DNA from: Blastopirellula marina
GTDB lineage: Bacteria > Planctomycetota > Planctomycetia > Pirellulales > Thermoguttaceae
DNA: 46,447 bases
Assembly (NCBI GenBank): GCA_020721965.1
Contig: DYLS01000028.1
Span: 1 to 46,447, forward strand
Direction: 5' to 3'
Under the pieces are notes generated by a model. The model did not search any database. It saw only the letters and a program-made list of their open reading frames with translations, and was not told the DNA's origin. The translations under genes and the position numbers were made by a program. Below are positions 7,564-10,478 of the stretch, one piece after another. The number at the start of each line of letters is the position of its first letter. The stretch's first letter is position 1.

Positions 7564-8685
7564 TTACCTCTCCTTATTCCCTTCACGATAGGCCGAAAGC
7601 AGCAGCTCCGCAAGGCGACGGAGTTCGGCGAGCGGTTCGGCCGCCAGCGGATCTACCGACACAACTCGCAGCCCGATCTCATCCGCCATCGCCACCGCCG
7701 CAGGCGACGCGATTTGGGGCTGGATCAAGATCAGCTTGATAGGAGTCTTGGCGACCGACTGCTGCAACTGCGAAAGCTCGTGGTCGCTAGGCGGCTTCCC
7801 CTCTCGCTCCATCGCCTCCTGCCGCAAATCATACGCGTCGGCAAAACACTCCCAAGCCGGGTGATACACGAAAAACGTCTGTCCGCGGAGGGCGGCGAGT
7901 TTCTCTCGCAACTCGGCATCGAGGGCATCCAGCTCCTGGGAAACCGCGGCCAACCCCTTCCGATAGCGATCCCTGCTCGCAGGATCGACCTCTTCCAGCA
8001 CCCGAGCCACCGTCTCGGCCTGGGATCTCAGCAATCGGGGGCTGAGCCAGATATGCAGGAAGTCCTGATGCGTGTGTGCAGGATGGGCGTCGGCCCCGGC
8101 CGTCTCGTGATCCGATGGATCGTGGGCCTGGTGTTCGTGATGGGGATGGTTGCCATCCTCGCCGAGGCCATGGCCGTGCTCTTCAGAATGATCGTGCTCC
8201 GCGGGATGGCCATGCGATACGGAATGATCGTGCTCTACGAGACGGCTCGGAATCAGCCCGCCTTGAGCCAGCTCCTGACGCAAATCGATCACCCTTACCC
8301 CGCTTCCTTGCAGCAACTGGCGGCAGGCGGGGCTTTGCTCAAACGGCATGCCCGTGACGAAAAAAACGCGAGCCCGGGCTAGCCGCGTGACGTCGGCATC
8401 GCTGAGCTGAAAGCTATGCGGATCGGACTGGCCGCTGATCATCACTTCCACTTGAACCCCGTCCCCCCCGATCTGCCGCACGAGCCAGGCATACGGGGGG
8501 ATCGTGACCGCCACTACCAGTGGCCCTTGCGTATCCGGGCTGGGCGATCTGCGGCAACCAAGCGCCGACAGAACTCCCAGCAGCGCAAGTCCGATGGAAA
8601 GCCAGCAGCCTTGGGTCCAATGCATCTTCCCCCAAAGGGACGGGGCCTGCGACTGCCACAAACTACGGCAACGGAATGGCATCAT
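7564..8685 (-). CDS. znuA: Zn/Mn ABC transporter substrate-binding lipoprotein (ZnuA-like)
   Basis: A 373-aa periplasmic metal-binding protein of the cluster A-I (ZnuA/TroA) family. After a membrane segment ending LSALGC (probable lipobox, slightly atypical) come VVAVTIPPYAWLVRQIGGD and the metal-ligand site SDPHSFQLS (first His). A long His/Asp/Glu-rich loop follows at about residues 150-200 with repeated HDHS, HGH and HPHH clusters, then HIWLSP and, further on, VYHPAWECFADAY. The His-rich loop is the hallmark of zinc rather than manganese binding proteins. The start at 8685 (ATGATG) is preceded by a purine-rich GAGAGAGA. It is the first gene of the operon, with the ATPase 134 nt downstream. 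Confidence 0.9.
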   Translation of the reverse strand: MMPFRCRSLWQSQAPSLWGKMHWTQGCWLSIGLALLGVLSALGCRRSPSPDTQGPLVVAVTIPPYAWLVRQIGGDGVQVEVMISGQSDPHSFQLSDADVTRLARARVFFVTGMPFEQSPACRQLLQGSGVRVIDLRQELAQGGLIPSRLVEHDHSVSHGHPAEHDHSEEHGHGLGEDGNHPHHEHQAHDPSDHETAGADAHPAHTHQDFLHIWLSPRLLRSQAETVARVLEEVDPASRDRYRKGLAAVSQELDALDAELREKLAALRGQTFFVYHPAWECFADAYDLRQEAMEREGKPPSDHELSQLQQSVAKTPIKLILIQPQIASPAAVAMADEIGLRVVSVDPLAAEPLAELRRLAELLLSAYREGNKER

Positions 8686-8797
8686 GGTGTGTCTCTCTCT
8701 TCGATGGTCCACGGCTGACAAGATGCACACATCAGTGCGTTACGCAGCCGACTCGATGCTGCGGATCGCCCTTTTCCCGAGTGTTTATCTTCTTTCT

Positions 8798-8835
8798 ACG
8801 AACCACGGTTCGGTTTACGAAACACGGTTCGGTTT
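8798..8835. promoter_or_regulatory. Candidate operator: tandem 19-nt dyads upstream of metal ABC operon
   Basis: Two direct copies of a 19-nt unit lie back to back: acgaaccacggttcggttt (8798) and acgaaacacggttcggttt (8817). Each contains a dyad, cgaacc-ac-ggttcg in the first and cgaaac-ac-ggttcg in the second. They lie about 115-150 nt upstream of the znuA-like start and could bind a dimeric regulator such as Zur or MntR. Which one is not shown by the sequence. Confidence 0.5.
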
Positions 8836-9263: not shown

Positions 9264-9283
9264 ATCACAAGATTTGTTGTGAT
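9264..9283. promoter_or_regulatory. Candidate operator: perfect 7-bp dyad
   Basis: ATCACAA-GATTTG-TTGTGAT, a perfect 7-bp inverted repeat with a 6-nt centre, about 95 nt upstream of the Cys-rich protein gene. Its length and spacing fit a dimeric helix-turn-helix repressor site, for example of a metal sensor. No regulator gene lies next to it. Confidence 0.45.
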
Positions 9284-9378: not shown

Positions 9379-10317
9379 ATGACAAAACTCCTCGGCTCGT
9401 TACTATTGGTCTGTGGAGCGGTGGGCTTGGCATTCGTTGCTTCCGGCCAAGGTACCGATTCCGGGGCTTGTAGCGGCTCTGCGTGCCCTGCAAAGGCGGC
9501 TGCCATCCTGATCGGCGGCTACGGAAGTGGGAGTGGTGCGAGGTGCTGCGGGGCCAACCACGCCGTCCACGCCCAGACGGTCTCTTCCGAATTCGCACAA
9601 GATGCGAAGGTAGCCTGCTGCGATTCGAAAGAATCGTGCTGTGGCAAAGGTCGGGCTTGTTGTGCTGAAGGCAATGAATGTTGTGCTGAAGGCAAACAAT
9701 GTTGTGCTGAAGGCAAAGAATGCTGCCAGGGCGGGGCTTGCTGCAACGCCGAGGCAAATGCGGCAAGCGCCGAGACGTGCCCCAAGGAAGGCTGCGGGGG
9801 CAAGGGCGACCAGAAGCAGGCGGAGAGTATGAGCGAAGGCACGCCGGCCCGGACGGTCTCGTATGTCTCGCCCAACGATCAGGCGCAGTCGGGTGAAAAG
9901 AAGGAAGGCAAGGCCCAAAAGCGTGAGATTCACTGCCCTGTGATGGGAGGGAGTGCCCAGCCTGACGTAGCTGCCGATTACAGAGAGGGCATGGTCTTCT
10001 TCTGCTGCCCAGACTGCATCGGGGAGTTCAAGAAAAACACGAGCAAATATGCCACGAAGGCCAATTTTCAACTAGCCAGTACCAAGCAGTACGTGCAAAA
10101 GGCTTGCCCCTTGACCGGCCGTCCGGTCGCCGAAGACAAAAAGGTTGTAGTCGCCGGAATCCCGGTCGGTGTGTGCCGCGGCGGTTGCGAGAGCAAGATC
10201 AAGGGCGCCGAAAATGATGAAGCCCGTTTGAGCTTGATCTTCGCGGATACCGCTTTCGAAAAGGGCTTCGCAAAACGCAGCAAGCCAGCCACCAAGAAAG
10301 AACAAGGCACCAACTGA
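9379..10317 (+). CDS. Exported Cys-rich protein with CC-pair array and TRASH/YHS-like segments
   Basis: A 312-aa exported protein. Residues 1-23 form a signal peptide. Residues 80-122 contain Cys-Cys pairs spaced exactly seven residues apart (80, 87, 94, 101, 108, 115, then 121), with the unit CCAEGK(E/Q) repeated, encoded by 21-nt DNA repeats. From about 183, REIHCPVMGG with FFCCPDCIGEFKKN forms a TRASH/YHS-like metal-binding segment, and a second weaker one (ACPLTGRPV then GVCRGGCESKIKG) follows. Metal (copper, zinc) binding outside the cytoplasm is a reasonable inference, and the divergent neighbour is a metal importer. A strong GGAGGTGG precedes the ATG. No known enzyme family is recognised. 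Confidence 0.85.
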   Translation: MTKLLGSLLLVCGAVGLAFVASGQGTDSGACSGSACPAKAAAILIGGYGSGSGARCCGANHAVHAQTVSSEFAQDAKVACCDSKESCCGKGRACCAEGNECCAEGKQCCAEGKECCQGGACCNAEANAASAETCPKEGCGGKGDQKQAESMSEGTPARTVSYVSPNDQAQSGEKKEGKAQKREIHCPVMGGSAQPDVAADYREGMVFFCCPDCIGEFKKNTSKYATKANFQLASTKQYVQKACPLTGRPVAEDKKVVVAGIPVGVCRGGCESKIKGAENDEARLSLIFADTAFEKGFAKRSKPATKKEQGTN

Positions 10318-10478
10318 AACACTTAGCCTCGTAAGAGGTTAGCTCCCGATCCCCTTTGTCCCTCCCGGAAGCGGCCGCGTCCCGAATGGATTGTTTGGGG
10401 CGCGGCTCATTTTTTGGCTTTTCTTCTCCGCGATGGGACGAGATTAGGAGTCTCCAGGCCTCGCCGGGCAAGAGGGCA

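Follow-up and report, generated by a model that had tools for sequence, protein, structure and literature searches.

The window, as we call the whole 46,447-nucleotide stretch of Blastopirellula marina DNA analyzed here, carries on its forward strand an open reading frame, 9379–10317, that encodes a Cys-rich protein of 312 residues (Table 1). A ribosome-binding site that was rated good, GGAGGTGG, lies directly 5′ of its ATG. Cys accounts for 28 of the 312 residues, and CC pairs lie at residues 56, 80, 87, 94, 101, 108, 115, 121, and 209. The 19-residue Kyte–Doolittle mean reaches its maximum, 2.28, at residue 4, and the best value past residue 30 is 1.1; because the N terminus is the sole strong hydrophobic segment, the protein is probably exported or anchored. 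At E ≤ 1 it matches no family in Pfam and none in NCBIfam. A scan of genome contigs with the whole protein returned one 22-residue match, in a response-regulator-like frame, which we set aside. Terminator-like hairpins of the kind found 3′ of the gene occur at five sites in the region, against 2.4 expected.

Table 1. Features at the array locus (window coordinates)
Feature	Position	Strand	Evidence
Divergent ZnuA-type metal-binding protein	7564..8730	-	PF01297 E 1.2e-53; same-system membership not established
Perfect inverted repeat ATCACAA-N6-TTGTGAT upstream of gene, possible operator	9264..9283	.	
Probably exported protein, 312 aa: N-terminal hydrophobic segment, Cys-pair array, tandem YHS/TRASH module	9379..10317	+	ORF, ribosome-binding site, order-wide C-terminal homologues
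N-terminal hydrophobic segment, residues ~4–22, likely signal peptide or membrane anchor	9388..9444	+	Kyte–Doolittle
Cys-pair array, residues 80–122; CC at 80, 87, 94, 101, 108, 115 (step 7) and 121 (step 6)	9616..9744	+	
Near-identical 21-nt tandem repeats within array	9658..9722	+	Tandem Repeats Finder, 3.1 copies, 93% matches
First YHS/TRASH segment, residues ~182–235; C186, C209, C213	9922..10083	+	Alignment, AlphaFold2 pLDDT >90
Second YHS/TRASH segment, residues ~240–300; C243, C266, C270	10096..10278	+	Alignment, AlphaFold2
Terminator-like hairpin 3′ of gene	10373..10407	+	16-pair stem and T run, consensus match alone

Upstream, 648 bases separate the array gene from the divergent ZnuA-type gene, which is followed by ABC ATPase and ABC-3 permease genes. 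The metal importer that the initial annotation placed next to the array gene is thus real, as judged by PF01297 and the ABC genes, but it is absent beside both same-genus homologues that we read (genomes G017 and G327). There, as read by eye from translations, the homologous genes sit amid cyclase-type, HAD-type, and other genes, and we therefore give the importer little weight as evidence. The inverted repeat found between the two genes matches the window once when up to two mismatches are allowed, against 0.08 matches expected. Exact copies occur in 4 of 144 loci, all four of them copies of the window itself, and so the repeat gives no sign of shared regulation. The same intergenic region also holds a 19-nt short tandem repeat (8797–8835).

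The C-terminal YHS/TRASH module

On sequence comparison, residues ~178–306 are part of a family that is found across the order and has two YHS/TRASH segments. Used as a query at E 0.001, the whole protein finds matches in 165 of 296 genomes from the order, mostly through residues ~180–305, and a profile of the module matches 21 of 119 genomes of the family at the same threshold, many of these matches being weak and partial. The two segments had been proposed to follow the array as TRASH/YHS-like elements, and both homology and the conservation of ligand-type Cys support this. The spacing is C186-x22-C209-x3-C213 in the first segment and C243-x22-C266-x3-C270 in the second. Across 28 aligned family members C186, C209, and C213 are invariant; a loose form of the double ligand pattern (x21–24, then x20–26) is present in all 28 rows, and the exact spacing of the window protein in 24. 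In the second segment most relatives have FCC where the window protein has VCR, so that a near-invariant Cys is gone (C267 to Arg), with C266-x3-C270 kept. A profile search for the two domains gives a divided answer: the homologues are recognized, 26 of the 28 by Pfam YHS (PF04945; best E 2.7e-13) and 26 of the 28 by TRASH_HVO_1752_C, in both cases at E ≤ 0.1, but the window protein itself is not.

The small relatives that we read are ~140–160 residues long and consist of a hydrophobic N terminus followed by the two segments. YHS-family proteins with three segments rather than two are encoded at L131:4953-5552 (minus strand) and at L026.

AlphaFold2 models the module with a mean pLDDT of 92.6. 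Structural comparisons returned weak matches, to toluene monooxygenase hydroxylases (Z of 4.1 or below) and to the TRASH domain 2das (Foldseek E ~1). In PMC4626032, one such hydroxylase is stated to hold a YHS domain, and a cyclase is described that is activated specifically by copper in dependence on its YHS domain. The same paper cites cadmium binding by the TRASH protein L24e and gives ligand Cys (C181/C204/C208) whose spacing is that of the window segments.

Cys-pair arrays in the window and elsewhere

Ahead of this module, translation of the frame agrees with the initial annotation that six CC pairs, from residue 80 to residue 115, lie exactly seven apart. In 20,000 shuffles of the whole protein at most three CC pairs fell in register, and this was seen once, and in 50,000 shuffles of residues 61–125 at most four did, seen three times; six were never reached in either set. 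The description of the linkers as AEGK(E/Q) holds in part. Of the five spacers, DSKES, GKGRA, AEGNE, AEGKQ, and AEGKE, two are exact and AEGNE is a near match, but the other two differ. The near-identical 21-nt repeats are likewise present, at the positions in Table 1, but do not span the whole array, the outer spacers having diverged.

A script run over 56 distinct YHS-family ORFs picked out eight with at least four Cys ahead of the last module. Four of these (L126, L135, L141, and L142) were rejected as three-segment proteins whose earlier segments had been counted as linker, and true Cys-rich linkers occur in the window protein, in G017 and G327 of the same genus, and in G043 of the same family. 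In both G017 and G327 the linker contains two CC pairs, together with a stretch reading ACCAGKAC or ACCAGKTC, but no heptad array. Because these same-genus proteins have Cys-rich linkers and no array, the array seems to have grown in the window lineage, at least partly through duplication of the 21-nt unit. The window protein was also the only one of the 56 to match the array profile, which supports the earlier remark that a fusion of array and TRASH segments is unusual.

Arrays of this kind do occur alone. A 51-residue array-only query found matches in 11 of 396 genomes when run against the order (E 0.01), and a query built from an alignment of arrays found them in 15 of 392 when run against the phylum (E 0.001), the genome of the window being included in both counts. 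Besides the window, 24 loci from the array queries were scored, of which 18 had an ORF with at least four CC pairs. Those in G390, G330, G283, G463, G722, and G580 had none and are left out of the count; for G580 (L106) the omission is conservative because an array-profile match and the partner gene discussed below were found together there. The commonest spacing in the stand-alone arrays is 7,7,9,7,7,7,7,7, and a block of three CC pairs (7,7) followed by a longer spacer is frequent. Ten aligned arrays, hand-picked among the most regular, share nine CC pairs, and none of these 18 Cys varies. No stand-alone array that was scanned passed the cut-off of a Pfam or NCBIfam family, and plasmid records gave no match to one such array with the low-complexity filter on.

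Two genomes depart from the common form. G262, one of the 18 and of the same family as the window, has a different repeat, of KDCCPKP type, in several heptad copies (L070 and L077–L084, on contigs C429, C125, C444, and C196); these CC heptads are of a separate kind and may be repeat DNA, and L070, the one locus scored, has no partner match. The array of G022 (L133) consists of four CC triplets, spaced 7,7,26,7,7,30,7,7,27,7,7. Around it (L133:6021-12357) the partner and array genes are followed on the same strand by genes for a P-type ATPase and for thioredoxin-family, Cys/His-rich, and outer-membrane efflux proteins. Near the G449 array is a ZIP-like start (E 6.3e-8, below the family cut-off, in a partly masked frame), and a BlaI-type repressor gene lies ~3.2 kb from the array of G066. 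The neighbors at the remaining array loci were mostly judged by eye from translations. One relative also encodes PSCyt2/PSD1 domains, which are typical of planctomycetes.

It is less certain how the window array relates to these proteins. An array profile (A4) built without the window, from the ten hand-picked rows, matches the window protein at E 2.2e-4, a score reached by 4 of 200 shuffles in which Cys were held fixed and by none of 200 full shuffles; most of the score falls on Cys positions. The window protein also shares with the stand-alone CC-x5 arrays the placement of step-7 CC pairs behind a hydrophobic N terminus. Common descent of the two is possible. The Cys pairs of the array fit metal binding and disulfides alike.

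A partner gene and a three-gene set

Directly upstream of the array, on the same strand, 15 of the 18 array genomes encode a small Cys-rich protein with a hydrophobic N terminus. The partner profile, A5, was itself built from ten array loci, so that 10 of the 15 match by construction; the five outside A5 are G362, G470, G779, G775, and G063. No partner match was found in G008, G262, or G425. A short Cys-rich frame noted by eye upstream of the G008 array may represent a diverged partner; G008 is counted here as lacking one. Members of the partner family (for example, L109:9259-9633) have a hydrophobic N terminus and CC or CCC motifs, and ten aligned partners end in CVWxC (eight), CLWRC (one), or SVWRC (one). 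Six partner ORFs that were scanned had no Pfam match, and one of two scanned against NCBIfam had a sub-threshold match to HYC_CC_PP (E 0.022).

The association also appears when the search begins from the partner. At E 0.01, 25 of 296 genomes of the order gave 26 matches, of which 22 were read, leaving out those in G203, G071, and G155 and the second of G022. Just downstream of 19 of these 22 is an ORF with at least three CC pairs; G250 and G038 have none, and G090 ends at a contig edge. Six genomes (G129, G032, G083, G052, G066, and G063) appear in both the array-first and the partner-first counts. In the genome of the window itself no partner match was found at E 0.01, the search having scored 14 of the 81 candidates from its first look.

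Three genomes of genus g47 (G045, G055, and G019) encode a YHS protein, the partner, and a CC-rich protein in this order on one strand, in frames that adjoin or overlap within ~20 bases. Two of these three loci entered the set through their partner match or their genus. The CC-rich proteins of g47 are less regular, with steps such as 7, 8, and 20 or more, and the fourth g47 genome, G036, has the YHS gene without the other two. The 52 other distinct YHS ORFs outside the window have no partner or CC-rich neighbors within flanks of mostly 1.5 kb, and the link from YHS proteins to partner and array therefore comes from one genus. The g47 gene order does place both kinds of part that make up the window protein as near neighbors elsewhere, and the window protein may combine two components of a g47-type set in one chain.

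Possible functions and known relatives

What such a protein does can be read in several ways. Tentatively, we favor an exported metal-binding envelope protein whose Cys pairs are a thiolate store or trap joined to a TRASH-type module. Starting from what is observed, namely the homology, the ligand spacing, the regularity of the array, and the neighborhood, we infer the metal, the redox state, and the function as follows. Copper(I) or zinc, as a soft transition metal, would be bound by the TRASH segments; the Cys pairs, if reduced, would hold that metal in a high-capacity store or trap; and, through the short tandem repeats, the store could grow by duplication of its unit. Related genomes seem to make comparable parts (a TRASH protein, a Cys-rich partner, and a CC-rich protein) as separate adjacent genes.

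Several observations argue for this reading. First, the YHS/TRASH homology keeps both ligand sets, and PMC4626032 describes a cyclase whose copper-specific activation depends on its YHS domain. Second, the CC columns are invariant in the ten stand-alone arrays, chosen as these were among the most regular. Third, the partner lies directly upstream of the arrays in 15 of 18 genomes, and YHS, partner, and CC-rich genes stand together in the three g47 genomes. Fourth, the array of G022 adjoins P-type ATPase, thioredoxin-family, and outer-membrane efflux genes. Finally, the homologues of G017 and G327 also have a Cys-rich linker, even without an array.

Other observations weigh against a metal store. 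The Cys of an exported protein may be oxidized. Metal genes were found near few array loci (G022 and, through the sub-threshold ZIP-like start, G449), most neighbors being read by eye, and no zinc importer lies beside the two same-genus homologues read. The array is fused to TRASH segments in the window only, and only 3 of the 55 other YHS ORFs, all in g47, are beside partner and CC-rich genes. Moreover, the genome of the window has no partner match, and the window protein has lost C267. With greater reserve than for the window protein alone, we suggest that Planctomycetes may have an undescribed envelope system, made up of three exported parts (a tandem TRASH/YHS protein, a small Cys-rich partner with CVWxC or a variant at its C terminus, and a regular Cys-pair array), that stores or scavenges a soft metal extracytoplasmically, and that the window encodes a fused version of it.

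The main rival, which we consider unlikely, is that the array is a structural disulfide ladder resembling granulin, a rigid and protease-resistant stalk that holds the TRASH module off the membrane. Each CC-x5-CC would then be a small hairpin, with stacked pairs cross-linked. AlphaFold2 does place short strands every ~7 residues along the array (86–88, 93–95, 100–102, 107–109, 113–115, and 121–123), in a block with pLDDT of 59–77. A second look at the Foldseek matches also found the granulin 6cku (Z 3.0, rmsd 3.8, 48 residues aligned, model residues 76–123), although the fit is weak and concerns a stretch modeled with low confidence. Four of six weak PDB profile matches are granulins (E 0.3–2.1), and in many stand-alone arrays one spacer, that following the third CC pair, is longer than the others, at the place where the longest spacer of granulins also falls in the PDB-profile alignments. 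Direct comparison speaks otherwise, however: hhalign against three granulin segments gave a probability of 0.4%, in another register, and Pfam Granulin reached E 0.82 at best on the array segment.

Less probable again is a recent and near-neutral expansion of heptads within an already Cys-rich linker, with selection acting on the TRASH module alone. In its favor, about three copies of the unit are 93% alike in DNA, and the same-genus linkers have their ACCAGKAC or ACCAGKTC stretch and no array. But the CC pairs are kept through all seven steps despite the divergence of the outer spacers, and the CC columns do not vary in the ten chosen stand-alone rows. A role for the array in thiol redox rather than metal storage, whether as an oxidant sink or as a substrate for disulfide exchange in the envelope, seems the least probable of these possibilities: vicinal Cys pairs are redox-capable and a thioredoxin-family gene lies near one stand-alone array (G022), but the nearest neighbors searched around the window gene are ABC importer genes, a CAP-domain protein, and a CBS/CorC-type protein, with no oxidoreductase among them.

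Should the array bind metal, as we favor, it would amount to an exported thiolate store built from repeats, with a capacity that could change by the addition of 21-nt units and a link to a known metal-binding domain. Should it be a disulfide ladder instead, the small repeats would form a highly regular scaffold that may be a bacterial counterpart of stacked granulins. On both readings, the gene pair that recurs, extended to a three-gene set in one genus, gives uncharacterized genes a testable common function.

Four known or newly collected groups invite comparison. Granulins (PF00396) resemble the window array in their runs of CC pairs and in the row of short strands predicted for it, whereas profile homology between the two is lacking. 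We rejected granulin homology on the hhalign result and on the behavior of PF00396, whose 14 matches in 20 genomes all lie off the arrays and below cut-off; the same family also matches in 4 of 14 control genomes. Metallothioneins share with the array short Cys-dense repeats, and residues 80–122 are without aromatics. Metallothioneins carry mixed CxC motifs, whereas the window protein is probably exported and has a regular CC-x5 pattern, and no metallothionein family of Pfam matches the whole protein or the array segment at E ≤ 1 (the segment matches Granulin alone, at the E value above).

Like the window protein, the stand-alone CC-x5 arrays have a hydrophobic N terminus, CC pairs mostly at step 7, and spacers rich in Ala, Glu, Gly, and Lys; unlike it, they lack a TRASH module, mostly lie behind a partner gene, and often consist of CC triplets parted by a longer spacer (7,7,9,7,7 or 7,7,8,7,7). 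Among the literature matches listed, the titles and abstract openings mention neither planctomycete CC arrays nor the partner, and the recurrence of arrays with a neighbor gene hints at an undescribed envelope thiol module. With YHS (PF04945)/TRASH relatives, finally, the window protein shares C-x22-C-x3-C, twice over, and differs in falling below Pfam detection, in being probably exported, in having its segments in tandem, and in carrying a Cys-pair array.
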